From contig NZ_CP139781.1 in NCBI RefSeq assembly GCF_019679435.2, forward strand, positions 1,674,001 through 1,738,000: 64,000 nt of DNA, read 5' to 3'. Shown here piece by piece: positions 5,583 through 60,453 of the stretch. A model generated the notes under the pieces. The model did no database searches. It worked only from the letters and a program-made list of their open reading frames with translations, and was not told the DNA's origin. The translations under genes and the position numbers were made by a program. Each line of letters starts with the position of its first letter. The first letter of the stretch is position 1. Source of the DNA: Actomonas aquatica. GTDB taxonomy: Bacteria; Verrucomicrobiota; Verrucomicrobiia; Opitutales; Opitutaceae.

Positions 5583-6272
5583 GTGTCTTTGCTCAAAATC
5601 TCCCAACTCACCAAAAGCTACGCGACCCCGGAAGGGTCCCGGCAGACGGTGGTCGATGTGCCGCAGTTCGATCTCGCCGCCGGCGAACAAGTCGCCGTGC
5701 GCGGCCGCAGCGGCACCGGCAAAACCACCTTCCTGCACCTCATCGCCGGCATCCTCGAGCCCGACTCCGGGTCGATTCACGTCGGCGAGACCGAGGTCAC
5801 CGCCCTCTCCGAATCCGGCCGCGACCGCTGGCGCGCCGCCCACCTCGGCTACATTTTCCAGACCTTCAACCTCCTCCAAGGCTTCACCGCTTTCGAAAAC
5901 GTGCTCCTCGGCACCGCCTTCGGCGGCCGGCGCCCCTTCCCCGAAAAAGCCACCGCCATGCTCGAGCGCGTCGACCTCGCCGCCCGCCGCGACTACCGCC
6001 CCCGCCAGCTCTCCACCGGCCAGCAACAACGCGTCGCCATCGCCCGCGCCCTCGTCAACCGCCCGCCCCTCGTCCTCGCCGACGAACCCACCGGCAACCT
6101 CGACCCCCACCACGCCGCCGAGGCCCTCGGCCTCATCCGCTCCGTCTGCTCCGAGACCGGCTCGGCCCTCCTGCTCGTCAGCCACGACGAGGCCGTGCTC
6201 AACGCCTTTCCCCGCATCGTCGATTTCGCCACCCTCAACCAAGCCGGCACCCCGGCGTCGGAGGTCCGCTGA
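5583..6272 (+). CDS. ABC transporter ATP-binding protein (LolD/MacB type)
   Basis: Start chosen at the GTG at 5583, because the frame upstream reads through the intergenic region and encodes nothing family-like. The 229-residue product has Walker [10 protein letters not shown] (residues 41-49), Q-loop YIFQTFNLL, a signature in the variant form [15 protein letters not shown], Walker B VLADEPTG with the D-loop, and the H-loop LLVSHD. This is the ATPase of a Type VII (MacB/LolCDE/FtsX-like) exporter, which couples ATP hydrolysis to mechanical work in the periplasm rather than classical transport. It overlaps the permease gene by one base (TGATG), so the two are translationally coupled. Substrate not predictable; the divergent DUF3299 gene hints at a metal-linked cluster. 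Confidence 0.9.
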
Positions 6273-7474
6273 TGCTGCTCTTCATCGTCCGGCGCAGCCT
6301 GCGCCAATACCTGCTCTCAACCATCGTCACCTCGCTCGCCATCGCCCTCGCGAGCGGCCTGTTGCTCTCCATCTGGACGATCAAAACCCAGAGCCAAGCC
6401 ACCTTCACTCGCATGAACAGCGGCTTCGATGCCGTGCTCGGCGCCCGCGGCTCCAAACTCCAGCTCGTCCTCAACGCCATCTTCCACCTCGAAGCCTCCT
6501 CCGGCAACGTCTCCGCCGAGGACTTCGCCGCCGTCCGCCGCCACCGCCTCGTTAAACGCGCCATCCCCATCGCCGTCGGCGACAACTACGAAGGCATCCG
6601 CCTCATCGGCACCGAGCCGGAGATGTTCACCGAGGTCGAAATCGAGCCCGAGCAAACCCACCGCTTCGCCGCCGGCCGCGCCTGGACCGACGAACACGCC
6701 CACGAAGCCGTCGTCGGCAGCTTCGCCGCCCGCCACCTCGGCCTGCGCACCGGCGACACCTTCCACCCCTCCCACGGCCTCGCCGACAACGACATCCACG
6801 AGCACGAAGAACTCTACACCGTCGTCGGCGTGCTGGAGCCCTCCGGCACCCCGGCCGACAAAGTCATCTGGATTCCGCTTCACGGCCTGCAGCACATGAG
6901 CGGACACAACGAAGCCGCGGCCGACGAAGTCAGCGCCGTGCTCATCCAACTGCGCACGCCCACCGCCGGCTTCATGCTCGACGGCTACTACAACCGCCAG
7001 GGCGACCGCCTCACCTTTGCGTATCCCATCGCCGCCATTGTTTCCGACCTCTTCAGCAAAATCGGCTGGTTCGACCGCGTCCTCGCCTGGGTTGCCTACC
7101 TCGTCGCCGCCGTCTCTGCGGCCACCGTGTTGGTCGCGATCTACAACTCCATGTCGGCCCGCCGCCGCGACCTCGCCATCCTGCGCGCCCTCGGCGCCTC
7201 GCGCCGCACCCTCTTTGGCTCGGTCGTGCTCGAAGCCATCGCGCTCGGTTTCATCGGCACCCTGGCCGGCTTCCTCGTGCACGGCGGCATCAGCCTGGTT
7301 TCGGCGACGATCATCCAGCGCGAAACCGGCGTGGTGATCGACCCATGGACGCTGCATCCCGTGATGCTCTGGGCCCCCTTGGCGATGATCGGCCTCTGTG
7401 CCCTCGGCGGCGCCCTCCCCGCCACCAAAGCCTACCGCACCGACGTCGCCGAACACCTCGCCCCCCAGTCCTAG
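6272..7474 (+). CDS. ABC transporter permease, FtsX/MacB-like
   Basis: A 400-residue protein with one N-terminal membrane segment ([21 protein letters not shown]), a periplasmic domain of roughly 230 residues, and three C-terminal segments ([68 protein letters not shown]). The coupling-helix region [21 protein letters not shown] is diagnostic of the FtsX/MacB permease fold. It is coupled to the ATPase upstream. The periplasmic domain contains several His residues (HEHEELY, SGHNEA), which would suit metal handling, but this is suggestive only. Confidence 0.88.
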
Positions 7475-8503: not shown

Positions 8504-9082
8504 ATGGAAATACCGCGTCTATTGATCGTTCTGGATCTCGACGAGACGCTTATCCGGGCGACGGGAAATCCCACGCTTGATCCGCCAGATTTCACCATCG
8601 ATTCCTATCGCGTAAGACGGCGTCCGATGGTCCACGAGTTTTTGTGCGCTGCAGCGACTTTTGCCGATCTTGGCATTTGGAGTTCGGCGAGTGAGTCATA
8701 CGTCGATGCGATTGTCCGAAAAATTGTGCCTGATTCGATTTCGCTTCAGTTTGTGTGGGCTCGGTCGCGTTGCACGCGGCAATACGATTCTGAGCAGATG
8801 GAGGAATACTGGGTGAAAGACCTAAAGAAGGTGCGTCGGTTAGGGTATCCCCTTGAGCGAGTGTTGATGGTCGATGATTCGCCCGAGAAAGTTGAGCGCC
8901 ATTTCGGAAACTACGTGCGCGTAGAACCATTTTATGGAGACCAGAATGACCGAGTCCTACCTGATTTGGAGCGCTACCTTCGCTCCTTCATCTCCGTTCC
9001 AAACGTCAGAACCGTCGAGAAGCGGGGCTGGCAGCACGATCAAAACCAGATAGAGTCGAATCGGGTAGGCGGAGGTAATTAG
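8504..9082 (+). CDS. FCP1/NIF-like HAD phosphatase, 3' end altered by intron
   Basis: A 192-residue HAD-superfamily protein of the NLI-interacting-factor/FCP1 type: DLDETLI (Asp11 nucleophile, Asp13 acid/base), WSSASE as the second motif, and a distal K...RVLMVDDSPEK motif. Such enzymes remove phosphate from phosphoserine or small phosphoesters; the substrate here is unknown. The aagaag upstream of ATG 8504 is a fair Shine-Dalgarno site. GC is clearly lower than in the flanking core genes, which suggests transfer. The last residues (RVGGGN) are read from the 3' end of the group II intron; removing 9060-10954 would give ...IESKGT and a stop, so the pre-insertion protein was about the same length. 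Confidence 0.8.
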   Translation: MEIPRLLIVLDLDETLIRATGNPTLDPPDFTIDSYRVRRRPMVHEFLCAAATFADLGIWSSASESYVDAIVRKIVPDSISLQFVWARSRCTRQYDSEQMEEYWVKDLKKVRRLGYPLERVLMVDDSPEKVERHFGNYVRVEPFYGDQNDRVLPDLERYLRSFISVPNVRTVEKRGWQHDQNQIESNRVGGGN

Positions 9083-9137: not shown

Positions 9138-10697
9138 TTATCGGACCGTAGTTGGATAATGGATATGCGTCCAAAGCTGGACGAGGGAGGGCAGGCCTTC
9201 GACGGTGAGCCAGTCGTTGTGCAGGGCTTGGTTGAGGGCCGGGGATTTGGACATGGCCCAACATCCCGAGCCGGACAGCCCGTTGAGGATCGCGTCGCGT
9301 TTGCTCACGCCGAGGCGCAGCAACTGGCGGATTCGGTTCCGACGGGTCTTCCACATCTTCCAATAGCAGCAACGCAGGCGTCGTCTGATCCAGTGTTCGA
9401 GGTGGCGCACCGCGCCATAGGTGCGGCTCAGTCCGTAGTAACCCATCCACCCGCGCAGATACTGCCCGAGGTGTTGGATACGCACGGCCATCGCCACGCC
9501 CCAGCGGCGGCTGGTCAACTCACGCACTTCGTGTTCGAACCGCCAGAGCGATTGCTCGCTCCAGACGATACGACTGCCTTTGAAGGCAAAGCCGAGGAAC
9601 GTGAGCGCATTCGTTTGCACGACCGCACTCTTCGTCTCGTTCACCTTTAGTTTGAGCGTGTCTTCCAGGAACCGGCTGATGCTGGCCATGACCCGTTCGC
9701 CCGCGCGCTGACTCTTCACCAGGATGACAAAGTCGTCGGCGTAGCGAGCGAAGCGGTGGCCGCGTCGCTCCAGTTCGTGATCGAGGTCATCGAGGACGAC
9801 GTTGGCGAGTAACGGCGAGAGAGGCCCGCCTTGCGGCACGCCCTCGGCCGTGCGTTGCCAACGCCCGTCCACTGCAACTCCTGCCCGCAGGTAACGGGCG
9901 ATCAGACGCAGGACGCGTCGATCCTTCACCTTGCGGGCCACCCTCACCATCAGCACATCGTGGTTCACCCGGTCGAAGAACTTCGATAGGTCGAGGTCCA
10001 CCGCGATGCGGCGGCCCTCTTGTTTGATCGTGTTCGCGACATGGCGCACCGCGTCGTGGGCGCGACGGTGGGGGCGGAAGCCATAGCTGTGATCGCTGAA
10101 CCCCGGCTCGAAGATCGGGCCGAGTTGTTGGGCGATCGTCTGTTGGATCACTCGGTCGAGGACGGTGGGGATGCCCAATGGGCGCACCCCGCCGTCCGGT
10201 TTGGCCAGTTCCACGCGGCGCACCGGCGCGGGCACGTAGGTGCCTGCGAGCAATGCGTCGCGCAGTCTTGGCCAGTGCTCGCGGAAGCGGGCCGGGAAGT
10301 CGTCGATGGTGATGCCATCGACGCCCGGTGCTCCGCGGTTGGCCTTCACCCGTCTCCACGCTGTGGATACATTGGTCGTATCCAGGATCGCTTCGAGCAG
10401 GTGGTCGGCCTGTCCCTGTCCCTGTTCATATCCCGCGTCCGGCGGGACCGCTTCGCACCACCAGTCCGCAACGCCGGGCGGCGTTTGGGCGGACGATGAG
10501 CGGGCGGAGCCGGACGCGTGCGTTCGGTTCGGGCCTTCGTCGGGGTGAGACCTCCGGATCCTTCGGCGGACGGGTAACCCGTCGGAGCCTACTCCCGGCT
10601 CGTTTCCGCGGCGACTACTACGCCCTCTGCTGACTCCTGCGCGCGCTCCGCCGGTGTTGCCACCGACGATGCTTCCGGAAGGCACCGGATGCTTCAC
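9138..10697 (-). CDS. ltrA: Group II intron reverse transcriptase/maturase
   Basis: The open frame gives 519 residues from a GTG, but homology-like sequence starts only near residue 95 (QADHLLEAILDTTNVSTAW), so the real start is uncertain; no in-frame ATG precedes it. RT motifs are intact: NRGAPGVDGITIDDF, VRPLGIPTVLDRVIQQ, HSYGFRPHRRAHDAV, DLDLSKFFDRVNHD, GVPQGGPLSPLLANV and catalytic RYADDFVILV. The maturase domain ends in GLSGSGCWAMSKSPALNQAL...HIHYP, with no HNH endonuclease domain, which fits bacterial class C introns that use stem-loop targets. It should splice and mobilise the surrounding intron. No frameshift is seen, so it may be active. Confidence 0.93.
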   Translation of the reverse strand: MKHPVPSGSIVGGNTGGARAGVSRGRSSRRGNEPGVGSDGLPVRRRIRRSHPDEGPNRTHASGSARSSSAQTPPGVADWWCEAVPPDAGYEQGQGQADHLLEAILDTTNVSTAWRRVKANRGAPGVDGITIDDFPARFREHWPRLRDALLAGTYVPAPVRRVELAKPDGGVRPLGIPTVLDRVIQQTIAQQLGPIFEPGFSDHSYGFRPHRRAHDAVRHVANTIKQEGRRIAVDLDLSKFFDRVNHDVLMVRVARKVKDRRVLRLIARYLRAGVAVDGRWQRTAEGVPQGGPLSPLLANVVLDDLDHELERRGHRFARYADDFVILVKSQRAGERVMASISRFLEDTLKLKVNETKSAVVQTNALTFLGFAFKGSRIVWSEQSLWRFEHEVRELTSRRWGVAMAVRIQHLGQYLRGWMGYYGLSRTYGAVRHLEHWIRRRLRCCYWKMWKTRRNRIRQLLRLGVSKRDAILNGLSGSGCWAMSKSPALNQALHNDWLTVEGLPSLVQLWTHIHYPTTVR

Positions 10698-11008
10698 GCG
10701 CAGGCCTCCCCGGATAAGAGCATCAACGTCCCTCGCACGAGCGCATCGTCTACCCTGCGGCCTGAACCTGTGGGCTTCATCATGTGGTGGTGACTCGCCC
10801 CGGCCGCTAAGCCTTTTACGATGTTCCTGTTCGTCGCCCCGCGAGTCCGCCTACGGCTTCTTTCAGACCCAGCCTCGCGACTGCGCCCTTGCCCTCGGCT
10901 ACTGCTTTTCATAACTCAATGTTCATTACTCCATTAACTTACAAGTTCTTGCACAGGGGACTTGAACCCCATTCGTTGACGCCCATGCCGGGCATACACC
11001 AACCACTC

Positions 11009-11050
11009 GAGCCAACGAGCCACAGCGCTCCGCGCTGTGACTCGCGGCTC
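11009..11050. repeat. Imperfect hairpin before ATG 11062 (attC-like site 1)
   Basis: GAGCC-AAC-GAG(C)-CACAGCGC-TCC-GCGCTGTG-(A)CTC-GC-GGCTC folds into a long stem with an asymmetric internal loop (AAC opposite GC). An 11-nt spacer (acttaaaaacg) then leads to the next start codon. It shares both conserved ends and the asymmetric loop with the site at 11455. Cassette recombination sites (attC) have conserved outer boxes, extra unpaired bases on one arm and a variable centre, but a full R''/R' pair is not present. Confidence 0.45.
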
Positions 11051-11061
11051 ACTTAAAAACG

Positions 11062-11502
11062 ATGGGCGAAGAAATGCCGAACGAAGACCAGTCTTCTAGC
11101 ATCCTGCATCGGATTCTGGATCGGGAGCTATTGCCGGATTTCACCATTTGGCGTGAATACTTTGGGGCACCGAGTCCGGTAGAGGTTGTTATCGATCGAG
11201 CTTTGGAAGCCCTGTCTAGTGCGATTCCCGACGACACGCATTGTGTTTTGCACGGTTGGATAGATCAGGCCGTATTGGAGATTGTCGCGATCGATCGCGT
11301 TGCAGAAATCCGCGATCGAACGAAGCGATATCGGCCAGATCAAGGAGGTGACTCAGGTTTGCTTGCTGTTGTCGGCAGAAGGATCCTCGTCCTCGAATTC
11401 TCGTATGAACGCGGGGAGGCTTTACTTACTGAATACAAGCCCATCCAGCCGCCCGAGCCAACGAGCACCGCGTCGGCGCTCGCGGCTCAGCTAAATCGAT
11501 GA
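11062..11502 (+). CDS. Hypothetical protein, cassette-like
   Basis: A 146-residue soluble, acidic protein that I do not recognise. A second in-frame ATG at 11074 is an alternative start. The body alternates helices (SSILHRILDRELLPDFTIWREYF) and probable strands (LLAVVGRRILVLEFSYERGEALLTEYKP). The last ~15 residues (EPTSTASALAAQLNR) are read from the attC-like hairpin, so the C-terminus may be incidental. The stop overlaps the next start (ATGA), so the two are translationally coupled. Lower GC than the core genes. Confidence 0.6.
   Translation: MGEEMPNEDQSSSILHRILDRELLPDFTIWREYFGAPSPVEVVIDRALEALSSAIPDDTHCVLHGWIDQAVLEIVAIDRVAEIRDRTKRYRPDQGGDSGLLAVVGRRILVLEFSYERGEALLTEYKPIQPPEPTSTASALAAQLNR
11455..11488. 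repeat. Imperfect hairpin before ATG 11499 (attC-like site 2)
   Basis: GAGCC-AAC-GAGC-A-CCG-CGT-CGG-C-GCTC-GC-GGCTC has the same arms and the same AAC/GC internal loop as the hairpin at 11009 but an unrelated centre. A 10-nt spacer (agctaaatcg) leads to the start codon. Confidence 0.45.
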
Positions 11503-12176
11503 CAGTAGATTCCTTAGTATCATTTTCTGAGATTTGGAAAGAGTTAGGAGGCATTTTCGGGACGGCGGCCGCCATCCTGACGCTTCTTATTCGCTATCGT
11601 GAACATCGATCAGCGCAGTCCACTAAGCCCCCGCCGAAAAAGTCTGACTACGATGTCGCTATCGAAGCTTTTGGTTCAGATGCAGTTCTCCGGACCGTTT
11701 TTCAGGATCTCAAGAAGATTGACCTAATCAGAAAGAACATCGACATCACAGTATCACCTGAAGAAATCGGTCCTCTTATTCGGTTTATGAAGTCAGGCGT
11801 GGCGACTCCTTACGAGCTTAAGCGAGCATGGGCCTACAGGAAGTTTCGCAGAAATCGGAGAGGAGAGATTGTGCGATTAACTTTTCGTTTAGGCTGCTTC
11901 GATCGGTGCACCTTACATGCCATGAACGCGTATTCCATCGCTCTTGCATTCTTTTTCATGGGGTCAATGCTCCTGAATATATATGCCTCATTTGCGATGC
12001 CACTCCCGGTTTTATCGCTCCTTCTATTGGTTTGCCTAATTATTAGTATCACCCTGATCAGTGATTCTTTGACTGCGGCATCGAGGCTGGAACGTCGACT
12101 ACGCACGCGAAGAGGAATTAGAAGGTCGAAAAAATCGCCGGAGATAAGGCCGACAAATCAGCCTGTCTCAACTTAG
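11499..12176 (+). CDS. Hypothetical membrane protein, cassette-like
   Basis: A 225-residue protein of unknown function. An N-terminal hydrophobic helix (GIFGTAAAILTLLIRY) is followed by a soluble segment (DYDVAIEAFGSDAVLRTVFQDLKKIDLIRKN...) and then two adjacent hydrophobic segments (YSIALAFFFMGSMLLNIY, LPVLSLLLLVCLIISITLI) with a basic tail (RLERRLRTRRGIRRSKK). It is probably an inner-membrane protein with its middle domain in the cytoplasm. The start overlaps the upstream stop by four bases. Low GC and AT-rich codons point to transfer. No toxin, immunity or defence family could be recognised. Confidence 0.6.
   Translation: MTVDSLVSFSEIWKELGGIFGTAAAILTLLIRYREHRSAQSTKPPPKKSDYDVAIEAFGSDAVLRTVFQDLKKIDLIRKNIDITVSPEEIGPLIRFMKSGVATPYELKRAWAYRKFRRNRRGEIVRLTFRLGCFDRCTLHAMNAYSIALAFFFMGSMLLNIYASFAMPLPVLSLLLLVCLIISITLISDSLTAASRLERRLRTRRGIRRSKKSPEIRPTNQPVST
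12141..12169. repeat. Imperfect hairpin before ATG 12182 (attC-like site 3)
   Basis: GAGA-TA-AGGC-N10-GCCT-G-TCTC repeats the architecture of the two previous sites (two short stems with an unequal internal loop) although the bases differ. It is followed by aacttagacgttatgc, whose CGTTATGC end resembles the core (GTTRRRY-like) end of integron cassette sites. ATG 12182 lies inside that end. Confidence 0.45.
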
Positions 12177-12181
12177 ACGTT

Positions 12182-12724
12182 ATGCAAGAAATCGACAGAA
12201 TCGATAATTTCGACGAAACTGGAAACTCCGTCGATGCATGGAAACAGAAAGCCGAAGAGTTGTCGTTTTGCGCCGAGGGTCTTCAATCCCATGCAGACTC
12301 CGAGTCTTCGAAAGTCTACGATCTTCAAAAACAGATCATACTGCAAATGAGCTCATTCTGGGTGAAGCAGATGCTGAGGGGGTTTACTTTGGAGTGTTTA
12401 CTCAAAGCACTGTGGCTCAAAAATGGGAATTCTTTATGCGACCAAGGAAGATACAACGGTCTTGATGGAATTAAGAACCATAGAATTCACGAAATGGCAC
12501 CAAAAGTCGGTTTTCAAACGAACGACACAGAAAAGAGAGTCCTACGCATACTCGGTGCTTTTGCTACCTCTGGAGGCAGGTATCCGGTATTCACAAAATA
12601 TGACAGCTTGAGTAAGGACTTCGGAAGCGGAAATCCGAAGTTTATTCTGGAGTGGAACCTTCAAGAACTTGAACCTGCTTATTTCGAACTAAGGAGAAAA
12701 CTAGTTAATGAAATTGAAGAATAA
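12182..12724 (+). CDS. Hypothetical protein, possibly HEPN-like
   Basis: A 180-residue, mainly helical protein. The segment RGFTLECLLKALWLKNG followed by HRIHEMAPKVGFQ is reminiscent of HEPN-domain proteins, in which a helix of the form (E/A)LxLKALL(I/L)K precedes a His-rich second helix; the full catalytic RxxxxH motif is not clearly seen, so this is a weak suggestion. No signal peptide or membrane segment. GC is low. It stands alone between two cassette-like boundaries with no partner nucleotidyltransferase gene, which argues against a standard MNT-HEPN toxin pair. Confidence 0.55.
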   Translation: MQEIDRIDNFDETGNSVDAWKQKAEELSFCAEGLQSHADSESSKVYDLQKQIILQMSSFWVKQMLRGFTLECLLKALWLKNGNSLCDQGRYNGLDGIKNHRIHEMAPKVGFQTNDTEKRVLRILGAFATSGGRYPVFTKYDSLSKDFGSGNPKFILEWNLQELEPAYFELRRKLVNEIEE

Positions 12725-12872
12725 CCAGTCGTCTCATAGGGAACCGGACCGGGTCATGTCGTCACATTGTCTCATTCCCCAAAAAATCGGATCCTCTGCT
12801 CCCTTCGCTGGCTTCAAATTCGATGGTGATTTTCAAGGTGCTGCGCTTGCCAGATATGTAACGTTATATCGA
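12720..12872. other. Candidate long cassette boundary between two ORFs
   Basis: The segment starts with ATAAC (over the stop of the previous gene) and ends with aacgttatatcg, whose GTTAT can pair with it; the end resembles the acgttatgc end at 12177-12185. At about 150 bp it would be long for an attC site, and I cannot draw a full stem. Otherwise nothing is seen in it. Confidence 0.25.
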
Positions 12873-12894
12873 CATACCCCAATCAACCTGCCCC

Positions 12895-13401
12895 ATGACT
12901 TACGAACGTGATATCGAGACCCGCCGGACGGTGCTTCTCATCGTCGCCGGCGGGATTCTGCTGCTGGCTGCTTGGTCCTTTTATCACCTTCCAACCTCCC
13001 CGGCCCCCTCCTGGAGGAACTGGGTTACGCCCGCCGGATGGACCGTCATTGGCGTGTTTCAGCTCATTCTCGCGTTGGTTCATCGTTACGACCGGGTGCG
13101 CATCAGCCTCGACGACTCAAACTGGTCGATCCACGTGAACAAACGCCTGTGGTATCAGGGAGCGCCGCTTACCGCGAACCAGATCACCGAAGACCAAGTC
13201 GCCTTTAACCTCCACCCGCCTCGGCCGTGGCGATCTCGCCCCCTCGCCAAGCGGTGGCTTTCCGACGAAGTGATCGCTTGCTTCCGCTCCATCACAAATC
13301 CCGCTCCAAGCCTGAGCTCGGACGGAAACCACGCCCTCCATTCCACCCAACCCACGAGCCCCCACTACAACGCCGTCTCCAGCCGGCACACCGCGCAGTG
13401 A
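12895..13401 (+). CDS. Hypothetical two-TM protein
   Basis: A 168-residue protein. Two hydrophobic segments (TVLLIVAGGILLLAAWSFY and WTVIGVFQLILALVHRY) are followed by a soluble part with strand-rich sequence (RVRISLDDSNWSIHVNKRLWYQGAPL), reminiscent of small membrane-anchored PH-like domains, but I cannot name a family. The Pro/Ser/His-rich tail looks unstructured. GC is higher than in the preceding cassette-like genes, so it may have a different origin. Confidence 0.55.
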   Translation: MTYERDIETRRTVLLIVAGGILLLAAWSFYHLPTSPAPSWRNWVTPAGWTVIGVFQLILALVHRYDRVRISLDDSNWSIHVNKRLWYQGAPLTANQITEDQVAFNLHPPRPWRSRPLAKRWLSDEVIACFRSITNPAPSLSSDGNHALHSTQPTSPHYNAVSSRHTAQ

Positions 13402-13414
13402 GTGAGTTCAGGCA

Positions 13415-13648
13415 ATGAAAGACGATTCCACTGCCGAACTGCGAGAGGCCGGGAAGATCTGGCTCTGCCTCATTTTCAGCGTGATGTGGATAGGACTCGG
13501 AGTCGCCGGCTTCGCGTTCGTCCTCAATAGCCAATACTTTGGTCGAATACCGCTGGCATCACTCGGAGCCATCGTGCTCAGCGGCTTCATTCTCCTGAAA
13601 GGGGGCTACATGTTCGTCAGATCCCTGATCGCCCTATTTCGCCCATAA
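13415..13648 (+). CDS. Small two-TM hypothetical protein
   Basis: A 77-residue protein with two predicted membrane helices (KIWLCLIFSVMWIGLGVAGFAF and LGAIVLSGFILLKGGYMF) joined by a short loop. It starts 13 bp after the previous gene and may be co-transcribed with it. Function unknown; small size lowers confidence. Confidence 0.5.
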   Translation: MKDDSTAELREAGKIWLCLIFSVMWIGLGVAGFAFVLNSQYFGRIPLASLGAIVLSGFILLKGGYMFVRSLIALFRP

Positions 13649-13758
13649 TTTGGCTCAGTTAGGGAGTGATACTTGGTCGCTCGGCCGGTGCGCCTCACCC
13701 CTCATGGCTGGACAGAGGGAGCGCTGAGGCGAGATGGTGGTGAGCTCGCTTGTTTCCT

Positions 13759-14316
13759 ATGAATCTGCTTCTGCACGCTGCTTACTTCGCCGCCGTCAAA
13801 CACTCCGACCAACGGAGGAAAAACACCGCGGCCGCGCCTTACATCAACCATCCGCTGGAGGTGTCCTGTCACTTGTCCGAGGTGGGTGGAATCTCCGATG
13901 AGGCCGTGCTCATCGCTGCCGTGCTGCACGATACGGTCGAAGACACTGCCACCACCCGCGAGGAGATCGCCACCACATTCGGCGAGACGGTCGCGGCCCT
14001 CGTCATGGAATGCACCGACGACAAGAGCCTGGAGAAAGCCGAACGCAAACGCCTGCAGGTCGTGAACGCGCCGAAGAAAAGCCCCGGTGCCAAGGCCATC
14101 AAGATCGCCGACAAAACCTGCAACCTGCGCTCCATCCTCGTCGATCCGCCCGCCGGTTGGTCCTGGACCCGCCAATACGACTACTTCGTTTGGGCCAGCA
14201 AGGTTGTCGCTGGACTTCTGGGCCACCACCCCGCCTTGGACGAAGACGTGCAACGCGTCCTGCAAGAGGGTCTGGACAAACTCCAACCTCTCGCCGCCGC
14301 CGAAGGCACGGCGTGA
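13759..14316 (+). CDS. MESH1-like HD pyrophosphohydrolase (copy 1)
   Basis: ATG 13759 is preferred to the upstream TTG at 13750. The 185-residue single-domain protein matches the MESH1 branch of RelA/SpoT hydrolases: YINHPLEV (His31), LLHDTVEDT-type motif (LHDTVEDT, His57-Asp58, Glu61-Asp62), ECTDDKSLEKAERKRLQV and AIKIADKTCNLR. Such enzymes need Mn2+ and remove the 3'-pyrophosphate of (p)ppGpp; animal MESH1 also acts on NADPH. There is no synthetase or regulatory domain, so it would be a stand-alone alarmone hydrolase. It is one of two nearly identical copies; differences include Ser/Ala and Ser/Thr changes near the N-terminus and near residue 168. Confidence 0.88.
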   Translation: MNLLLHAAYFAAVKHSDQRRKNTAAAPYINHPLEVSCHLSEVGGISDEAVLIAAVLHDTVEDTATTREEIATTFGETVAALVMECTDDKSLEKAERKRLQVVNAPKKSPGAKAIKIADKTCNLRSILVDPPAGWSWTRQYDYFVWASKVVAGLLGHHPALDEDVQRVLQEGLDKLQPLAAAEGTA

Positions 14317-14489
14317 TAGCCGCTCCCGGTCTCTCGGCGTAGGCTGCGAGCTTGCTCGCGCTCCCCTTGCCTCTCGGTAAAACCCGGCGTTCAAACGCAG
14401 AGCCCTTTAACCGCGACGCCGCCCGGAGGCTTGCCCGCCTTTGGCGGGTCGGCGTCCACCTCAAGGCAGTGCTTCCCCTGCCCTCTTCC
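14317..14489. other. Non-coding spacer within duplication copy 1
   Basis: Between convergent genes. It includes cggaggcttgcccgcc/ggcgggtc, an imperfect hairpin that could end transcription from both sides. The same spacer is present at 17000-17171. Confidence 0.5.
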
Positions 14490-15777
14490 TCAATGCGTTG
14501 CTGGGGCGCTGTAGGCGGGGGCTCCGGCCGGGGTGGCTGAACCTCCCGGCGTCGGCGCCACCGGCGCCTGGATGGTGCCGCGAATCTCGGCGGCCCGTTT
14601 GAGGCCGGCCGCGCTGCTGCGACCCGTGAAGCGCAGACAGAGGCGATCCATAAACACGTAGGTAATCGGCACGACAAACAGGGTCATGATCGTCGCGATG
14701 CCGAGTCCACCCACGATGACCAGACCGAGCGGGTTGCGGATCTCCGCGCCCGCCCCCTGCGCGAACGCGATCGGGACCGCACCGAGGATGGTCGATACCG
14801 ACGTCATCAAGATCGGGCGGAAGCGCGCCGAGGTCGCCTGAAACACCGCCGTCGACGCATCCAAGCCTCTCTCGATTTGGAGCTGGTTGGCGAACTCCAC
14901 GATGAGGATGCCGTTCTTCGCGATGAGTCCGATCAGCATGATCAGACCAAAGCGCGAAAACAGGTTGTCGGTCATCGCCGGCCCCCAATACCGCGTCGCA
15001 TACAACACCGTGATGCCTCCCGCCACGGCGATCACCACGCCGGTGAAAATGGTGAAGGGATGGACCCACGACTCAAACTGCGCCGCGAGAATCAAAAAGG
15101 TGAACAGCAGCGCCAGGCCGAACATCACGTAGGTGTCCCCCGCGCCTTCCAAAAACTGCCGCGCCGGGCCGTCCCACGCATAGGTGCTGCCCGCCGGCAG
15201 CAACGCGTCGATTCGGTCCTGCAGATAGGTGATGGCGTCGCCCATCGCCACGCCGTCAGCCAGCGGCGCCGAGAGCGTGACCGAGCGCAGGCGGTTGAAG
15301 TGCGGGTAACTCTCCGGCACGGCGTTTTCGTCCCACGTCACGAGGTTGCCCAATTGCACCAGACTGCCCCGCTCCGAGCGCACGTAGATGCGCGCGAGAT
15401 CGCCCGGGGTCATGCGACGGCTGTCCTCCACCTGTAGAATCACGTCGTATTGCTGACCGCCGCGCTGAAACTGCGTGACCCGCCGACTGCCCAGCAAGGT
15501 CTCCAAGGTCGTGGCGATGTCCCGCACCGGCACCGCGAGGTCGGCCGCCTTGGCGCGATCGATGCGCACATCGAGCTGCGGTTTCGTCGGCGACGGATAA
15601 AGCCGCACCGGCCCAAACACGCCACTCGCTTCCATGTCCTCCACAAACTGCTCCCCGCTGGTCTGCAGCTCCTCAAAATCACTGCCCTGCAAGACCAGTT
15701 GCAGGGAGCTGCCCCGCCCCGGTCCACCACCACCGCCGAACGGACGCTTCGGTCCCACGCTCACCTGCAGGCCGGGG
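14490..15777 (-). pseudogene. Truncated RND efflux pump gene (3' portion)
   Basis: It encodes residues ~638-1061 of the pump at 17172-20357 in an intact frame (about 424 codons from GTG 15764) but lacks the first ~637 residues, including TM1-6 and most of the porter domain. Few substitutions separate it from the full gene (for example SERGSL versus SARGSL, FTGVVIAV versus FTGVAIAV, GLDASTAV versus GLDASAAV). It cannot make a pump. The break at 15777 coincides with the end of the direct repeat, so this is a duplication fragment rather than a decayed gene. The sequence upstream of it has no recognisable promoter. Confidence 0.92.
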
Positions 15778-15880
15778 CGACCGGAAGACGTCAGGTCTTG
15801 ACTCTTGACAACTAATAAATCCCGACGCGAAAAGCCCCGCCTTTCCTCCTGCCGAAGACTGAATTCGGACCGAAAATCAA

Positions 15881-16279
15881 ATGAACTCGACCAGGTGGAT
15901 TATCTTCCCGTGCTTCCTGATTTTCGCTGCTGGGTGCTATCGGCAAACTGAAGCGGCTTACCTTGACCTACTCCCTCCCGGCGCAAGTGAAGTCCGTTCC
16001 ACCACCATACCTGCCGGCATAGACTTCAGCGTTTTTATTAAAGCCAAACTCACACATGGTGAGTTTCATCAATTTATCAATGCCACGGGATTAACGGCCG
16101 GCGACATCAGGAATGTCTCACTCATACCAGAGGACGACGTTTCGGCTTGGTGGCACCCACAAGGGACTGGACCGCAATACTCCAAGAAGGAGGCTCATAG
16201 AGATTCCGACATCGTGAATGCGGTTCTGTGGGCAACCTATGAAGAGGGAACCCTGTATTTCCACCACATCGACCTCTAG
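15881..16279 (+). CDS. Putative lipoprotein of unknown function
   Basis: A 132-residue protein with a lipoprotein signal (WIIFPCFLIFAAGC, lipobox AAGC, Cys19), so it would be anchored in a membrane facing the periplasm. The mature part (LPPGASEVRSTTIPAGIDFSVFIKAKLTHGEFHQFIN) resembles no family I know. It has lower GC than its neighbours and lies in the 0.6-kb unique segment between the two copies of the duplication, which suggests that it arrived with, or marks, the insertion. Confidence 0.6.
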   Translation: MNSTRWIIFPCFLIFAAGCYRQTEAAYLDLLPPGASEVRSTTIPAGIDFSVFIKAKLTHGEFHQFINATGLTAGDIRNVSLIPEDDVSAWWHPQGTGPQYSKKEAHRDSDIVNAVLWATYEEGTLYFHHIDL

Positions 16280-16375
16280 CTCCGCCACCACCCAAGCATC
16301 GCAAAAAACAGGAACTCAAACCTCGCACGCTGGCAGGCCGACCCAATCCGACAAAGCCAAGCTCAACCGAGCCTT

Positions 16376-18459
16376 CCTCATCCCTCGTGGCTGGACAGGG
16401 GGAGCGCTGAGGCGAGATGGTGGTGGGCTCGTTTGTTTCCTATGAATCTGCTTCTGCACGCTGCTTACTTCGCCGCCGTCAAACACTCCGACCAACGGAG
16501 GAAAAACACCGCGGCCGCGCCTTACATCAACCATCCGCTGGAGGTCGCCTGTCACTTGTCCGAGGTGGGGGGAATCACCGATGAGGCCGTGCTCATCGCT
16601 GCCGTGCTGCACGATACGGTCGAAGACACCGCCACCACCCGCGAGGAGATCGCCACCACGTTCGGCGAGACGGTCGCGGCCCTCGTCATGGAATGCACCG
16701 ACGACAAGAGCCTGGAGAAAGCCGAGCGCAAACGCCTGCAGGTCGTGAACGCGCCGAAGAAGAGCCCCGGCGCCAAGGCCATCAAGATCGCCGACAAAAC
16801 CTGCAACCTGCGCTCCATCCTCGTCGATCCGCCCGCCGGTTGGTCGTGGACGCGCCAATACGACTACTTCCTTTGGGCCAACAAGGTCGTCGCCGGACTC
16901 CTGGGCCATCACTCTGCCTTGGATGCTGACGTGCAACGCGTCCTGCAAGAGGGTCTGGACAAACTCCAACCTCTCGCCGCCGCCGAAGGCACGGCGTGAT
17001 AGCCGCTCCCGGTCTATCGGCGTAGGCTGCGAGCTTGCTCGCGCTCCCCTTGCCTCTCGGTAAACCCCGGCGTTCAAACGCAGAGCCCTTCAACCGCGAC
17101 GCCGCCCGGAGGCTTGCCCGCCTTTGGCGGGTCGGCGTCCACCTCAAGGCAGTGCCTCCCTGCCCTCTTCCTCAATGCGTCGCTGGGGCGCTGTAGGCGG
17201 GGGCTCCGGCCGGGGTCGCTGAACCTCCCGGCGTCGGTGCCACCGGCGCTTGGATCGTGCCGCGAATCTCGGCGGCGCGCTTGAGACCGGCCGCGCTGCT
17301 GCGCCCCGTGAAGCGCAGGCAGAGGCGATCCATAAACACGTAGGTAATCGGCACGACAAACAGGGTCATGATCGTCGCGATGCCGAGCCCACCCACGATT
17401 ACCAGACCGAGCGGATTGCGGATCTCCGCGCCCGCCCCCGACGCAAACGCGATCGGGACCGCGCCGAGGATGGTCGATACCGACGTCATCAGGATCGGGC
17501 GGAAGCGCGCCGAGGTCGCCTGAAACACCGCCGCCGACGCATCCAGGCCTTTCTCGATTTGGAGCTGGTTGGCGAACTCCACGATGAGGATGCCGTTCTT
17601 GGCGATGAGGCCGATCAGCATGATGAGACCGAAGCGCGAAAACAGGTTGTCGGTCATCGCCGGTCCCCAATAGCGCGTCGCATACAACACCGTGATGCCA
17701 CCCGCCACGGCGATCGCCACGCCGGTGAAAATGGTGAAGGGATGGACCCACGACTCAAACTGCGCCGCGAGAATCAAAAAGGTGAACAGCAGCGCAAGGC
17801 CGAACATCACGTAGGTGTCCCCCGCGCCTTCCAAAAACTGCCGCGCCGGGCCGTCCCACGCATAGGTGCTGCCCGCCGGCAGTAACGCGTCGATTCGGTC
17901 CTGCAGATAAGTAATGGCGTCGCCCATCGCCACACCGTCGGCCAAGGGCGCCGAGAGGGTGACCGAGCGCAGGCGGTTGAAGTGAGGGTAACTCTCCGGC
18001 ACGGCGTTTTCGTCCCACGTCACGAGGTTGCCCAACTGCACCAGACTGCCCCGCGCCGAGCGCACGTAGATGCGCGCGAGATCCCCCGGAGTCATGCGAC
18101 GGCTGTCCTCCACCTGCAGGATCACGTCGTATTGCTGACCGCCGCGCTGGAACTGCGTGACCCGCCGACTGCCCAGCAAGGTCTCCAAGGTCGTGGCGAT
18201 GTCCCGCACCGGCACCGCGAGGTCGGCCGCCTTGGCGCGATCGATGCGCACATCAAGCTGCGGTTTCGTCGGCGAGGGATAAAGCCGCACCGGCCCAAAC
18301 ACGCCACTCGCTTCCATGTCCTCCACAAACTGCTCCCCGCTGGTCTGCAGCTCCTCAAAATCACTGCCCTGCAAGACCAGTTGCAGGGAGCTGCCCCGCC
18401 CCGGTCCACCACCACCGCCGAACGGACGTTTGGGTCCCACACTCACCTGCAGGCCGGGG
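16376..18459. repeat. Direct duplication, copy 2 (2.08 kb)
   Basis: Partner of 13693-15777. Here the RND gene continues beyond the repeat edge into its full length, so this copy is the original locus and copy 1 the derived one. Confidence 0.92.
16442..16999 (+). CDS. MESH1-like HD pyrophosphohydrolase (copy 2)
   Basis: Nearly identical to the gene at 13759 and with the same metal-binding motifs (YINHPLEV, LHDTVEDT, IADKTCNLR). The 185-residue frame is intact, so the genome carries two functional copies unless one is silent. It is convergent with the full-length RND gene downstream. The upstream 60 bp are also duplicated, so both copies may share the same expression signals. Confidence 0.88.
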   Translation: MNLLLHAAYFAAVKHSDQRRKNTAAAPYINHPLEVACHLSEVGGITDEAVLIAAVLHDTVEDTATTREEIATTFGETVAALVMECTDDKSLEKAERKRLQVVNAPKKSPGAKAIKIADKTCNLRSILVDPPAGWSWTRQYDYFLWANKVVAGLLGHHSALDADVQRVLQEGLDKLQPLAAAEGTA

Positions 18460-20357
18460 ATCTTGTCGCGGGCAATGCGGCGCACTTCGGAAATGAGGTC
18501 CTGGGTGGTGCGCTCGCGTTCTTCCCAAAGGGTCAGCGTGCCGGTCACGTAGGCGCGCCCCGATGTCTGACGCTGAAAGGTGCGATCGATTTCCGGAATC
18601 TTGAGAATCTCCTCCTCCAGCTGCCGGCCGTAGGAATCGGTGTATTCCGGCGTCGCGCCCACCGGCGGCTGTATGTTGGCCGTGAATACGCCACGATCCT
18701 CCGCCGGAATGAGTTCGCGCTGCAGTTGGGTGTAGAGCCACAGGCCGAGCACGGTCATGGCCAGCGACCCGATCATCACCACGGCGCGCCAGCGCATGGT
18801 CAGCGCCAGCAGCGCGTTGAAACCGCGGTTGAGCGCCGCAAAGGCCGGTTCGGTTTTGTCGTAGAGCCACCCGTGGCCGCCCTGCTCGCGGGGCGGCGAC
18901 AACAGGCGTGAGCACAGCATGGGCGACAGCGTGAGTGCGACCACGGCCGACATCACGACCGCCACCACCAGGGTGATGCCAAACTCGAAGAAGAGCCGCC
19001 CTGTCTGCCCCGACTGAAAAGCCACCGGCAAAAACACCGCCGCCAGCGTGAGCGTCGTCGCGATGATGGCGAAAGCGACCTGCCGCGCGCCGTGCACCGC
19101 CGCGGCGACCGGCGACTCGCCCGTCTCGATGCGGCGATAGATGTTTTCCAACATCACGATGGCGTCATCCACCACCAGGCCGATCGCCAGCACGCAGGCC
19201 AGCAGAGTCAGGATGTTGATCGAAAAGCCCAGCGCCGCGATCACCGCCACCGTGCCCACCAGCGAGACCGGCACCGCCAGCAGCGGAATGATGGTCGCGC
19301 GCCAGTTGCGCAGGAAGAGGAAAATCACCGTCACCACCAGCAACAGCGCTTCGTAAAGCGTGCGGTAAACCTCATCGACGGTGCGCTCGACGTAGGCCGA
19401 GTCGTCCTTGCTGAGCTCCACCACGATGCCGTCCGGCATCTCGCGCTGAAACACCGGAATGAGCGCCTTCACGCCATCGCATAGTTCGAGCAGGTTGGAC
19501 GTGGGCTGCCGCAGCACCTGCACGCCCACACTCGGTCGGGCGTTGAAGTAAGTTTTGCTGCGATAGTCCTCGGCGCCCAACTCCACCCGCCCGATGTCGC
19601 GGAACTTCACCTGGTAATCGCCGCGCGTCGCCAGCACAAGGTTCTCAAAATCCGACACCTCGGTCATGCTGCCCATGAGCCGCACCGGGAACTCCTGCGT
19701 GCGCGATTCGATGCGGCCACTCGGCACTTCGACATTCTGGCGCTCAAGCGCCGTTTGCACATCGGCCACGGTGAGGTTGTAGGCCGCCAGCCGATCGCTA
19801 TCGATCCACAGCCGCATCGCATAACGCGCCCCGTCGACCTGCACCGCGCCCATGCCGGGCAGCGCCTGCAAGCGTGGCACGACGATCTGCTCGATCATCT
19901 CCACAATCTCGAGGCGGTCATACACCTCGGAGTTAAACGACAAGGTGATGACCGGCGTCGTGTCGGGATCCACTTTGCTGATCCGCGGCCGATCCACCTC
20001 CTCCGGTAGCCGCACCCGTGAAACGAGATCGCGCACGTCGTTGGCCGCTTCGTCGACATCCCGATCCAGATCAAACTCGATCGTGATGCGCGAACTCTGC
20101 TCCGACGAGGTGGAGCGCATGACGTTGATGCCCTCCACTGCCGAGAGTTGTTCCTCCAGCGGATCGGTCACCTTGGTCTCCACCACCTCGGCGGAGGCTC
20201 CGCGATAGGTCGTCGAGACACTCACCGACGGCGATTCCACATTCGGGTATTCGCGGATCGGGAGCTGTTTAAACGAAAGCGCGCCGATGAGCACGATGAG
20301 CAAACAGCCCACGATGCAGATCACCGGGCGACGGATCGAGAGATCGGAGAGGATCAT
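17172..20357 (-). CDS. RND efflux transporter, inner-membrane pump (HAE1 family)
   Basis: A 1061-residue protein of full RND length. The N-terminus MILSDLSIRRPV leads into TM1, and the TM4 proton-relay pair is in LVVDDAIVMLENIYRRIE; twelve membrane segments with two large periplasmic loops are expected. A glycine-rich stretch (PFGGGGGPGRG) lies in the second loop. It exports small amphiphilic compounds in exchange for protons, with the adaptor encoded 6 bp upstream and an outer-membrane channel not found in this window. The long Pro/Ala tail (IQAPVAPTPGGSATPAG) is likely cytoplasmic and disordered. Its 3' 1.27 kb is duplicated upstream. Confidence 0.95.
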   Translation of the reverse strand: MILSDLSIRRPVICIVGCLLIVLIGALSFKQLPIREYPNVESPSVSVSTTYRGASAEVVETKVTDPLEEQLSAVEGINVMRSTSSEQSSRITIEFDLDRDVDEAANDVRDLVSRVRLPEEVDRPRISKVDPDTTPVITLSFNSEVYDRLEIVEMIEQIVVPRLQALPGMGAVQVDGARYAMRLWIDSDRLAAYNLTVADVQTALERQNVEVPSGRIESRTQEFPVRLMGSMTEVSDFENLVLATRGDYQVKFRDIGRVELGAEDYRSKTYFNARPSVGVQVLRQPTSNLLELCDGVKALIPVFQREMPDGIVVELSKDDSAYVERTVDEVYRTLYEALLLVVTVIFLFLRNWRATIIPLLAVPVSLVGTVAVIAALGFSINILTLLACVLAIGLVVDDAIVMLENIYRRIETGESPVAAAVHGARQVAFAIIATTLTLAAVFLPVAFQSGQTGRLFFEFGITLVVAVVMSAVVALTLSPMLCSRLLSPPREQGGHGWLYDKTEPAFAALNRGFNALLALTMRWRAVVMIGSLAMTVLGLWLYTQLQRELIPAEDRGVFTANIQPPVGATPEYTDSYGRQLEEEILKIPEIDRTFQRQTSGRAYVTGTLTLWEERERTTQDLISEVRRIARDKIPGLQVSVGPKRPFGGGGGPGRGSSLQLVLQGSDFEELQTSGEQFVEDMEASGVFGPVRLYPSPTKPQLDVRIDRAKAADLAVPVRDIATTLETLLGSRRVTQFQRGGQQYDVILQVEDSRRMTPGDLARIYVRSARGSLVQLGNLVTWDENAVPESYPHFNRLRSVTLSAPLADGVAMGDAITYLQDRIDALLPAGSTYAWDGPARQFLEGAGDTYVMFGLALLFTFLILAAQFESWVHPFTIFTGVAIAVAGGITVLYATRYWGPAMTDNLFSRFGLIMLIGLIAKNGILIVEFANQLQIEKGLDASAAVFQATSARFRPILMTSVSTILGAVPIAFASGAGAEIRNPLGLVIVGGLGIATIMTLFVVPITYVFMDRLCLRFTGRSSAAGLKRAAEIRGTIQAPVAPTPGGSATPAGAPAYSAPATH

Positions 20358-57294: not shown

Positions 57295-60200
57295 TTACTC
57301 GCGGGCTCCGGCCAGGGACTCCTGCTTCGCCACTTCCTTTTCGATCTGGGCCGCTTGCACCAGACCGTGGGCACTGGACTTGCCGGTGACCTTCATGACC
57401 ATCGCGTCCATCATGATGTAGATCGCCGGAATCACGAAGAGCGTGAGGAAGGTCGCGATCGCCAGGCCGCCCACAATGGCCAGACCCATCGGGTTGCGCG
57501 TTTCGCTGCCCGGACCGCTGGCCAGCGCGAGCGGCAAGGCACCGAGGATGGTCGACACCGCCGTCATCAGAATCGGCCGGAAACGCAACGTGGCCGCTTC
57601 GTGCGCGGCCTGCGCGGCGTTACGCCCCTCGATGCGAAGTTGGTTGGCGAACTCGACAATCAGAATGCCGTTCTTCGCCACCAGGCCGATCAACATGATC
57701 AGGCCGAAGCGCGAGAACAGGTTGTCGGTCATCGGCGTGCCCCAGAAACGCGAGGCCCACAGCACGGCCACGCCGCCGGTGAGCGCCAGCACCACGCCAC
57801 TGAAGATCGTGATGGGATGAATCCATGACTCGAACTGAGCCGCGAGAATCAGGAAAGTGAATACAAGCGCCAATCCGAAGAGCACGCGCGCATCGGCCGA
57901 GCTTTCGACAAACTCCCGCGTCTCGCCGTCCCAGGTGTAGTTGTAGTTCTCGGGCAGGATCGCGGTCGCGAGGCGTTCGAGTTCCGCCACACCGTCACCT
58001 TGGGTGAAACCTTCGTTGAGCTGCGCTGAGACCGAGATGGAACGTTGGCGATCAAAGTGCGGGTAGGCCTCGGGCACGATCTCCTCGCTCGTCTCCACGA
58101 GGTTGCTGAGCTGCACCAGATGACCATCCGTCGAGCGCAGGTAGATCTTGCCGAGATCGGCCGGCGAGGTGCGATCGGCGTCCTCGACCTGCAGCATGAC
58201 ATCATACTCGTCGGCGCCGCGGCGGAAACGGGTCACGCGGCGACCACCGAAGAGGGACTCGAGCGTGGTCGCCACGTCGAAAACCGGTACATTGAGGTCG
58301 GCCGCGCGCGCGCGGTCCACCTGCACGTTGAGCTGCGGTTTGTTGGGCTCGGGGCTGATGCGCGGACGATTCAGCACCGTGCTGTCGCGCAGGCCGGCGG
58401 TGATCTGTTCGGCGATGCTTTGGAGCTGCTTAAACTCGGGTCCGACCAGCACCATCTCGACGCCACCCGAGGCACTGCGGCGTCCGCCCAGCGGGCGCAC
58501 TGGCGCGGCGATGATCATGCCCCCGGGATTGGCGGCAAACTTGGAACGCAGGTCGGCCAACACCTCCTGGGTGGAGCGTTCGCGATCCTCCCAGTTCTTG
58601 AGCATCACAAACATGAACCCCCGGTTGGCGCCGCCGCCGCCAAATCCGGTGATGCGAAACATCTTTTGGATTTCGGGGGTGTTGAGCAGCACGGCCTCGG
58701 AGTCGCTGGCGTAGCTCGCGGCGTATTGCGGCGTCGAACCGAGCGGGAAATTCATGATCACGCGGAACACACCGCGGTCCTCGTTGGGCGTGAGTTCACG
58801 CTGCAGGTGGCCATAAAACCACGGGCCCGCCGCCGCAAAACCCGCGACGACCAGCAGCACCACCCACTTCACTCGCAGCACCGCGGCCAAGGTCCGCGAA
58901 AACACCGAGTTGATCGCCTCAAACATCGGCTCGGTGAGGCGGTAAAACAGACCGTGGGTGATTTTGCCGTCCGCCCCGTGGTGCGCATTGAGCAGCCGCG
59001 AACACAACATCGGCGTGAGCGTGAGTGCGATGAGACTCGAGACCGAAACCGCCACCGCGAGGGTGATGCCGAACTCAAAAAACAGCCGCCCCGTGCGCCC
59101 CGATTGGAAAGCCACCGGCACAAACACCGCGATGAGCGTGAGCGTCGTCGAAATGACCGCGAAAGCCATCTGCCGCGCACCGAAGATCGCCGCGTGGATG
59201 GGCCCCTCTCCTTCCTCGATGCGCCGATAAATGTTTTCCAGCATCACGATGGCGTCGTCCACCACCAGGCCCACTGCCAGCACCAGCGCGAGCATGGTGA
59301 GCAGGTTGAGGCTGAACCCAAACAACTGGATCACCGCAAACGAACCGACGATCGACACCGGGATTGCCACCAACGGGATCACCGTCGCCCGCCAGTCACG
59401 CAGGAAGAGGAAGATCGTGAGCACGACCAACACGCCGGCCACGTAGAGCGTAAAATACACCTCATCGACCGAGCGCTCGATGAACACACTGGTGTCGTAA
59501 GCGACCTCGAGATTCACGCCTTCCGGCAGGTTGCGTCGCAACGCGGGCAACTGGGCTTTGATCTCGTCGGCCACCTGCAGGAGGTTGGCCTGGGTCTGCT
59601 TCTGCACGCGCATGCCGACCGCAGTGCGACCGTTGTAGTAGGCCTGCACGCGGTAGTCGCTGGAGCCGAGTTCCACCCGGCCCACGTCGGAAAATTTGAT
59701 CTGCGTATTGCCCCGCGTTGCGAGCACCAGGTTCTCGTAGTCGCTCACCTCGTTGAGGCGGCCTTCCAGGCGCATGCCAAACTCGCGCGTGACCGACTCG
59801 ATGCGACCGCTGGGGATGTCGACATTCTGCTGGCGCAGCGCGCGTTCGATGTCGGACACCGTCAACTGATAGGCGGCAAGCCGATCGGGATCGACCCACA
59901 GGCGCATCGCAAAGCGCGGCGCCCACAAGCTCACGCGGGAGACGCCCGGCACGGTTTGCAAACGTTGCACGACGACGTTCTCCGCGAGCTCCGCCAACTC
60001 GAGGCGCGAGAAGCGATCAGAGTTCATCGAGATGGTAAGCACCGGATCGGCGTCGGAGTCGGCCTTCTCGACGTCGGGCGAACGCACCTCGTCGGGCAGG
60101 CGATCCTGCACGCGGCCCACCTTGTCGCGCACGTCGTTGGCGGCTTCGTTGATGTCGCGGCGCAAGTCGAATTCGAGGCTCACGCTGCCGCGACCGGCGT

Positions 60201-60453
60201 TGGCGTTGGCGCGCATGATGCGCACGCCATCGATGGAAGAGAGCTCCTCCTCCAGCGGATCCACGATCTGGGTCTCCACCACCTCGGCCGCGGCGCCAGG
60301 ATAGTTGGCGTCGACCGAAACGATGGGTGATTCGATGTCGGGGTATTCCCGCACCGGCAGGCGCAGAAAGGACAGGCAGCCCACCAAGATGATGAGCAAA
60401 GCCAGGACGATACAGACGACCGGGCGTTTGATGGAAACGTCGGAGAGCAGCAT
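57295..60453 (-). CDS. RND efflux transporter, inner-membrane pump 2
   Basis: A 1052-residue protein with the same order as the pump at 17172: MLLSDVSIKRPVVCIV start, TM4 relay in LVVDDAIVMLENIYRRIEEGEG, second-half motif LFSRFGLIMLIGLVAKNGILIVEFANQLR (in pieces) and ALPLALASGPGSETRNPMG near the end. It has clearly diverged from pump 1, so it is an old paralogue, not part of the recent duplication. It is a proton-driven efflux subunit; substrates cannot be predicted. The adaptor gene lies 30 bp upstream, and no outer-membrane channel gene is adjacent. Confidence 0.95.
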   Translation of the reverse strand: MLLSDVSIKRPVVCIVLALLIILVGCLSFLRLPVREYPDIESPIVSVDANYPGAAAEVVETQIVDPLEEELSSIDGVRIMRANANAGRGSVSLEFDLRRDINEAANDVRDKVGRVQDRLPDEVRSPDVEKADSDADPVLTISMNSDRFSRLELAELAENVVVQRLQTVPGVSRVSLWAPRFAMRLWVDPDRLAAYQLTVSDIERALRQQNVDIPSGRIESVTREFGMRLEGRLNEVSDYENLVLATRGNTQIKFSDVGRVELGSSDYRVQAYYNGRTAVGMRVQKQTQANLLQVADEIKAQLPALRRNLPEGVNLEVAYDTSVFIERSVDEVYFTLYVAGVLVVLTIFLFLRDWRATVIPLVAIPVSIVGSFAVIQLFGFSLNLLTMLALVLAVGLVVDDAIVMLENIYRRIEEGEGPIHAAIFGARQMAFAVISTTLTLIAVFVPVAFQSGRTGRLFFEFGITLAVAVSVSSLIALTLTPMLCSRLLNAHHGADGKITHGLFYRLTEPMFEAINSVFSRTLAAVLRVKWVVLLVVAGFAAAGPWFYGHLQRELTPNEDRGVFRVIMNFPLGSTPQYAASYASDSEAVLLNTPEIQKMFRITGFGGGGANRGFMFVMLKNWEDRERSTQEVLADLRSKFAANPGGMIIAAPVRPLGGRRSASGGVEMVLVGPEFKQLQSIAEQITAGLRDSTVLNRPRISPEPNKPQLNVQVDRARAADLNVPVFDVATTLESLFGGRRVTRFRRGADEYDVMLQVEDADRTSPADLGKIYLRSTDGHLVQLSNLVETSEEIVPEAYPHFDRQRSISVSAQLNEGFTQGDGVAELERLATAILPENYNYTWDGETREFVESSADARVLFGLALVFTFLILAAQFESWIHPITIFSGVVLALTGGVAVLWASRFWGTPMTDNLFSRFGLIMLIGLVAKNGILIVEFANQLRIEGRNAAQAAHEAATLRFRPILMTAVSTILGALPLALASGPGSETRNPMGLAIVGGLAIATFLTLFVIPAIYIMMDAMVMKVTGKSSAHGLVQAAQIEKEVAKQESLAGARE

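Follow-up and report, generated by a model that had tools for sequence, protein, structure and literature searches.

How does a bacterial chromosome come to carry two closely similar MESH1 genes, each followed by part or all of the same pump gene, when the first copy of that pump gene has lost its start? The question is raised by a stretch of 64,000 nucleotides of the Actomonas aquatica genome (contig NZ_CP139781.1, positions 1,674,001 to 1,738,000 of the forward strand), here called the window. Within it, each unit of a direct repeat contains a MESH1-like small alarmone hydrolase (SAH) gene and a 3' portion of the gene for an RND pump. With moderate confidence, and from the pattern of base changes, we propose that one copy may have been imported as DNA of a sister strain in which MESH1 already lay beside the RND gene, through one crossover or through one-sided recombination.

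Comparison of the window with itself aligns 13693-15777 with 16376-18459, both on the forward strand, at 96.0% identity over 2085 columns, with 82 mismatches and one 1-base gap (BLAST E 0.0). A separate repeat search of the window recovered two stretches of 300 nt, one with 96% and the other with 95% identity. The 83 differing columns lie along the full length of the repeat, 1-10 per 100 columns, and the longest run free of differences is 153 columns. A preliminary description of this DNA had the segments matching almost base for base; its coordinates are exact, and the wording is too strong. Copy 1 (13693-15777) consists of a forward-strand MESH1 gene of 188 amino acid residues (13750-14316; a TTG start is listed, and an ATG at 13759 is possible), a spacer (14317-14489), and the 3' part of the RND gene on the reverse strand (14490-15777), which matches PF00873 positions 666-1020 of 1021. 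Copy 2 (16376-18459) has its own forward-strand MESH1 gene of 188 residues (16433-16999) and is continuous with a full RND gene of 1061 residues (17172-20357, reverse strand; PF00873 1.2e-284; 83% amino acid identity to the gene of the closest congener, G001). The spacers measure 173 bp in copy 1 and 172 bp in copy 2, and the single gap falls in them. They also contain a short repeat (about 14339-14378 and 17022-17061) that recurs at some 40 further places in the genome, in some cases as inverted pairs, and that looks like a repetitive extragenic palindromic (REP) element. A second RND gene of the window, at 57331-60453 on the reverse strand, has about 56% protein identity to the first.

The edge of copy 1 at 15777 (ggccgggg) is abrupt: copy 2 goes on as the RND gene, while copy 1 enters a segment of 598 bp (15778-16375, forward strand). 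The segment has an open reading frame (ORF) of 132 residues (15881-16279), lipoprotein-like by eye. It gave no Pfam, NCBIfam or PADLOC match and no relative among 33 related genomes, and no mobile or selectable element was recognized within it. The sharp edge, the truncated RND copy and the two intact MESH1 genes with few amino acid changes (the proteins are 96.8% identical) had all been described correctly. So had the conclusion that this is not a simple tandem duplication, since the 598-bp segment of lower GC content (0.527) separates the copies.

The age and the manner of the event, as first described, do not stand up as well. A base-by-base comparison of synonymous and nonsynonymous change, which had been suggested at the outset, shows mainly synonymous change. 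The RND parts differ at 51 bases, 45 synonymous and 6 nonsynonymous. Their dN/dS is 0.05 (dS 0.13); that of the MESH1 pair is 0.16 (dS 0.10). With 96.0% identity and synonymous divergence of this size, the event cannot be called recent. The RND fragment of copy 1 is without a start and without about 60% of the gene length, and it still forms an ORF of 424 residues (14490-15764) with no stop or frameshift. With the G001 gene as outgroup, 13 synonymous and 2 nonsynonymous changes fall on the copy 1 branch, 17 and 3 on the copy 2 branch; a further 16 differences (15 synonymous, 1 nonsynonymous) could not be assigned to a branch and do not enter the test. If changes are treated as independent and about 70% of them are expected to be nonsynonymous under neutrality, the probability of at most 2 nonsynonymous changes among 15 is 7.9e-6 for a copy 1 that was neutral throughout, and 0.02 if neutrality applied to half of the branch. 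It follows from the mostly synonymous change on the branch of a headless fragment that the fragment sat in a whole gene during most of the divergence, so both RND versions would have diverged mostly as intact genes, at a similar pace. A headless gene fragment is thus a usable test of import against copying, in that retained constraint points to life in an intact gene elsewhere.

This result bears directly on the preliminary reading of a recent duplication, taken here as a tandem duplication in place that was truncated at birth and then lost its left 598-bp unit. The head-to-tail order agrees with that reading, and one unit of 2.68 kb would suffice. However, the neutral expectation for a fragment truncated at birth fails against the counts just given, and headless DNA that changed under purifying selection gives no support to copying in place. 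Recent repeats elsewhere in the genome, in two cassette arrays, also look different from a pair at 96% identity: one array (L083) has 5510 bp at 99.98%, and the other (L081) has repeats of 1875, 488, 445 and 399 bp with identities of 99.1-100%. We consider truncation at birth improbable. Constraint could also have been kept if the fragment were itself a selected, stand-alone C-terminal gene, and its open frame does extend into the 598-bp segment, to 469 residues in all. Such a gene would cover the transporter end only (PF00873 positions 666-1020 of 1021), and we give this explanation hardly any credit.

The account that competes most closely with import is a duplication in place, long ago, of a stretch with the entire RND gene. 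The two genes would have been functional and have diverged, and a later deletion would have cut copy 1 and brought the 598 bp next to it. This account explains the synonymous pattern without transfer and fits the base changes. It needs more events, namely the duplication and the deletion, and a long coexistence of full neighbors without gene conversion. In addition, self-comparison of the window detected in the island (the inserted region considered below) neither a leftover of a second 5' part of this RND gene nor one of the HlyD partner. We regard it as possible, although on the doubtful side. The level of divergence, about 4%, is also of the order of differences between strains or species, as would be seen if the assembly were a chimera of two strains from one sample. 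The genome is a single contig of 6.1 Mb with completeness 100 and contamination 0.21, which speaks against such a chimera, and we hold it to be unlikely; misassembly of a single locus is likewise unlikely given 4% divergence in a one-contig genome.

The import that we propose would have proceeded as follows. A sister strain would carry MESH1 adjoining its RND gene, and the copy 1 version would have diverged there in an intact gene. Some 2.68 kb of this DNA, made up of the 598-bp segment, MESH1 and the 3' part of the RND gene, would circularize and enter by a single crossover in the shared 2.08 kb. The product would read left flank, repeat, 598 bp, repeat and the rest of the RND gene, with a truncated RND gene on the left and a full one on the right. 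One-sided homologous/illegitimate recombination would be an alternative route with an identical end product. For linear DNA, the accessible text of PMC3240628 names both routes, single crossover and homology-facilitated illegitimate recombination. The likeness to Campbell-type integration or homology-facilitated illegitimate recombination, as described there, lies in direct repeats that flank a foreign segment and in one abrupt non-homologous joint. The difference is that here the event is read from its product, and that the 598 bp are without a recognized mobile or selectable element. The similar lengths of the RND branches fit two lineages of intact genes, and the repeat junctions are compatible with such an insertion without being proof of it.

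Several points weigh against import. The predicted donor arrangement is present in none of the seven congeners, and closer strains lie outside the sets that were searched. In the spacer, about 5 of 173 columns differ, a smaller share than at synonymous sites, and import does not account for this. Protein change in MESH1 lies more on copy 1 than on copy 2 (end branch 0.033 against 0), and selection on the copy 1 gene may be somewhat relaxed. Finally, an old complete duplication that was truncated recently predicts the same synonymous pattern.

Both genes of the pair are recognizably MESH1. The HD_4 domain is found in both copies at 67 and 68.5 bits (Pfam cut-off 27.2; PF13328 2.1e-18 for copy 1 and 7.3e-19 for copy 2), and these two genes are the only PF13328 matches of the host. 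In the PDB, copy 2 is most similar to MESH1 of human and fly, with E from 1.6e-47 (3nr1) to 2.3e-45. Both copies retain the HD and ED motifs, as seen in the alignment of copy 2 with 3nr1 and of both copies with 24 loci; the motif residues would have the roles that they have in MESH1. The W and R of a GWSxxR motif align with human MESH1 3nr1 and are present in both copies. We take this to be an NADPH-site motif, an assumption for which a literature search gave no confirmation. No synthetase domain is present in either protein: Pfam reports HD_4/HD only, and the NCBIfam spoT_relA model scores 83-85 bits over the HD part, against a cut-off of 499. In a tree of 26 rows, the two copies are sisters (100/99); a Pirellula sequence is next to join them (97/91), followed by a Verrucomicrobiales sequence (83/80), and most other forks are unresolved.

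Where could MESH1 have come from? Vertical inheritance in the genus was considered and rejected: none of the seven congeners gave a MESH1 match, either in the protein search or with PF13328, although several of the congener and relative genomes are incomplete drafts. Among 56 relatives, there were two weak protein matches (36% identity) and three with a PF13328 match, one of which is above the cut-off. A phage-borne gene was rejected as well, as 113 phage records match, all at less than 60% identity, and viral contigs gave no match. So was a plasmid-borne gene, as the 332 matching plasmid records are all below 60%, the best being 54.9%; these matches do show that MESH1 relatives ride on large replicons. 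PADLOC gave no match that would make MESH1 a known defence gene. Among the ten neighboring ORFs of the nearest MESH1 relatives (L013-L015), Pfam found no RND gene or other gene in common with the window. Next to the Rhodopirellula baltica MESH1 gene lies a gene with a NADAR domain (L015 10553-11065, reverse strand), which hints weakly at chemistry of the NAD type. Among the titles and abstract openings listed by literature searches that reach few subscription journals, none dealt with MESH1 in Verrucomicrobia or Planctomycetes, and none with integrons of this bacterial family.

The closest congener shows what the site may have looked like before. G001 has the same neighbors on both sides in the same order, and it lacks both the island and, by protein search and PF13328, any MESH1 match, so the comparison with relatives that had been suggested can be answered at least here. 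In this genome, an FtsX permease gene and the RND gene are convergent and overlap by 15 bases (L057 10879-12081 and 7726-10893). In another genome, G010, the RND end is a few hundred bases from typA (L060). The counterpart of the permease gene in the window, an FtsX-type ABC permease at 6272-7474 on the forward strand, is the left neighbor of the inserted region. Most simply, the approximately 9.7 kb between 7475 and 17171 would be an insertion in the A. aquatica genome, with the exact empty site given by G001 alone. In two regions of the A. aquatica genome, 3.077-3.091 Mb and 1.421-1.434 Mb, many places match short parts of the island. The island also contains a NIF-type phosphatase gene (8504-9082, forward strand; PF03031 1.1e-34), whose last codons lie within the intron described next.

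Part of the island is integron debris. A covariance model was built from 36 of 39 aligned attC sites, and it found 58 sites in five pieces of sequence, the 36 training sites included. In the window it found three, all on the forward strand, as follows. The first, at 11001-11067 (model match 10991-11067; 48.6 bits, E 2.6e-8), has its R'' end interrupted by an intron; the second is at 11438-11504 (69.7 bits, E 1.1e-12); the third, at 12124-12185 (41.5 bits, E 7.5e-7), is degraded. The next best match has E 0.83. Between the sites are two forward-strand cassette ORFs, 11062-11502 and 11499-12176, neither of which has a Pfam, NCBIfam or PADLOC match. Cassette ORFs and attC sites at 10991-12185 resemble integron arrays elsewhere in the genome. 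With at least two attC sites and no adjoining integrase, 11001-12185 is a cluster of attC sites lacking integron-integrases (CALIN). All nine integrase matches are outside the window. The integron integrase is some 1.4 Mb away, at 3091876-3092796 (TIGR02249, 360.8 bits, cut-off 265), at the end of the 3.077-3.091 Mb array, and the piece that includes it (L081, 3073000-3092999) is a chromosomal integron in which 29 attC matches accompany the integrase. A second place above the TIGR02249 cut-off, 6104943-6105734 (281.3 bits), belongs to an integrase that is probably frameshifted, with its match split over two frames (L084, 6104821-6105734). The same search in 14 control genomes gave matches below the cut-off in all 14 and above it in none. 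In the attC array of L083, positions 9588-20000 are a near-perfect (99.98%) tandem duplication with a period of 4.9 kb, which extends beyond the piece examined.

The intron that interrupts the first attC is a group II intron (Rfam; 9059 to about 11000, reverse strand) with a reverse transcriptase/maturase (ORF 9138-10697; TIGR04416, 406 bits), and its edges were taken from copies in G006. It sits in the R'' end of the attC and is oriented opposite to the cassette ORFs. From this site we infer class IIC, that is, a group IIC-attC intron, a kind that the accessible text of PMC7923331 describes as inserted in attC sites, opposite the cassettes. The likeness to a CALIN with such an intron covers the three attC sites, the intron inside an attC and the integrase elsewhere in the genome. 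The differences are that the MESH1 copies are not bounded by attC sites and that the model finds no attC at three related introns of G006. G006 has four long matches to the intron at 81% and further partial ones, and insertion in an attC is demonstrated for the intron of the window only. Given this setting, MESH1 as an integron cassette was a candidate, and it was rejected: none of the three attC sites of the window flanks MESH1, and even with filters off the nearby matches are at chance level (13340-13359, E 4.1; 16336-16352, E 4.2). With no convincing attC at its flanks, MESH1 is a neighbor of cassette debris and not a cassette. The attC model also had no match in loci L001, L002 and L047. 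Recombination products, MESH1/SAH proteins, CALINs and introns in attC sites are all known kinds of thing.

What would the two hydrolases do? The RelA_SpoT synthetase domain, PF04607, was not found in the host genome, which on sequence grounds makes both genes orphan SAHs. Among 57 genomes including the host, PF04607 was found in one (G011), against 11 of the 14 control genomes. Among genomes with MESH1 relatives, 17 of 21 have it, and three of the four without it are those of the nearest relatives (L013, L014 and L015), from one Verrucomicrobiales and two Pirellulaceae genomes for which completeness is not given. A synthetase-free setting is not a rule for bacterial MESH1, yet it does hold for the nearest kin. 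The accessible text of Atkinson 2011 (PMC3153485) counts zero RelA/SpoT homologues (RSHs) in three Verrucomicrobia and one Planctomycete and reports long RSHs as absent from the Planctomycetes-Verrucomicrobia-Chlamydiae (PVC) superphylum; that of PMC8118318 says the same of the phyla Verrucomicrobia and Planctomycetes, in which RSHs are given as absent.

An orphan SAH of Xanthomonas is described in the accessible text of PMC9765508 as hydrolyzing alarmones and NADPH, and MESH1 is reported as a coenzyme A (CoA) phosphatase in that of PMC13221220. The proteins of the window share with the Xanthomonas enzyme, XccSAH, a single HD_4 domain, the HD and ED motifs and the lack of a synthetase domain. 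They differ in forming two nearby copies and in the host background: RelA and SpoT are both present in Xanthomonas, and the search of the present host gave no RelA_SpoT domain. By analogy, we infer that both genes encode active metal-dependent 3'-phosphohydrolases. With no RelA/SpoT synthetase domain detected in the genome, these enzymes probably act on a cofactor (NADPH, CoA) or on alarmones of outside origin, and a cofactor role or one as a shield against foreign alarmones is plausible. More tentatively, the MESH1 lineage may spread by transfer among bacteria that, as in animals, have no alarmone synthetase of their own; it would act there on NADPH or CoA, or shield its hosts from the alarmone-making toxins of competitors, and it would locally be being added to. 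In a host with no recognizable alarmone synthetase, a non-alarmone role of the MESH1 pair could be tested free of a (p)ppGpp background.

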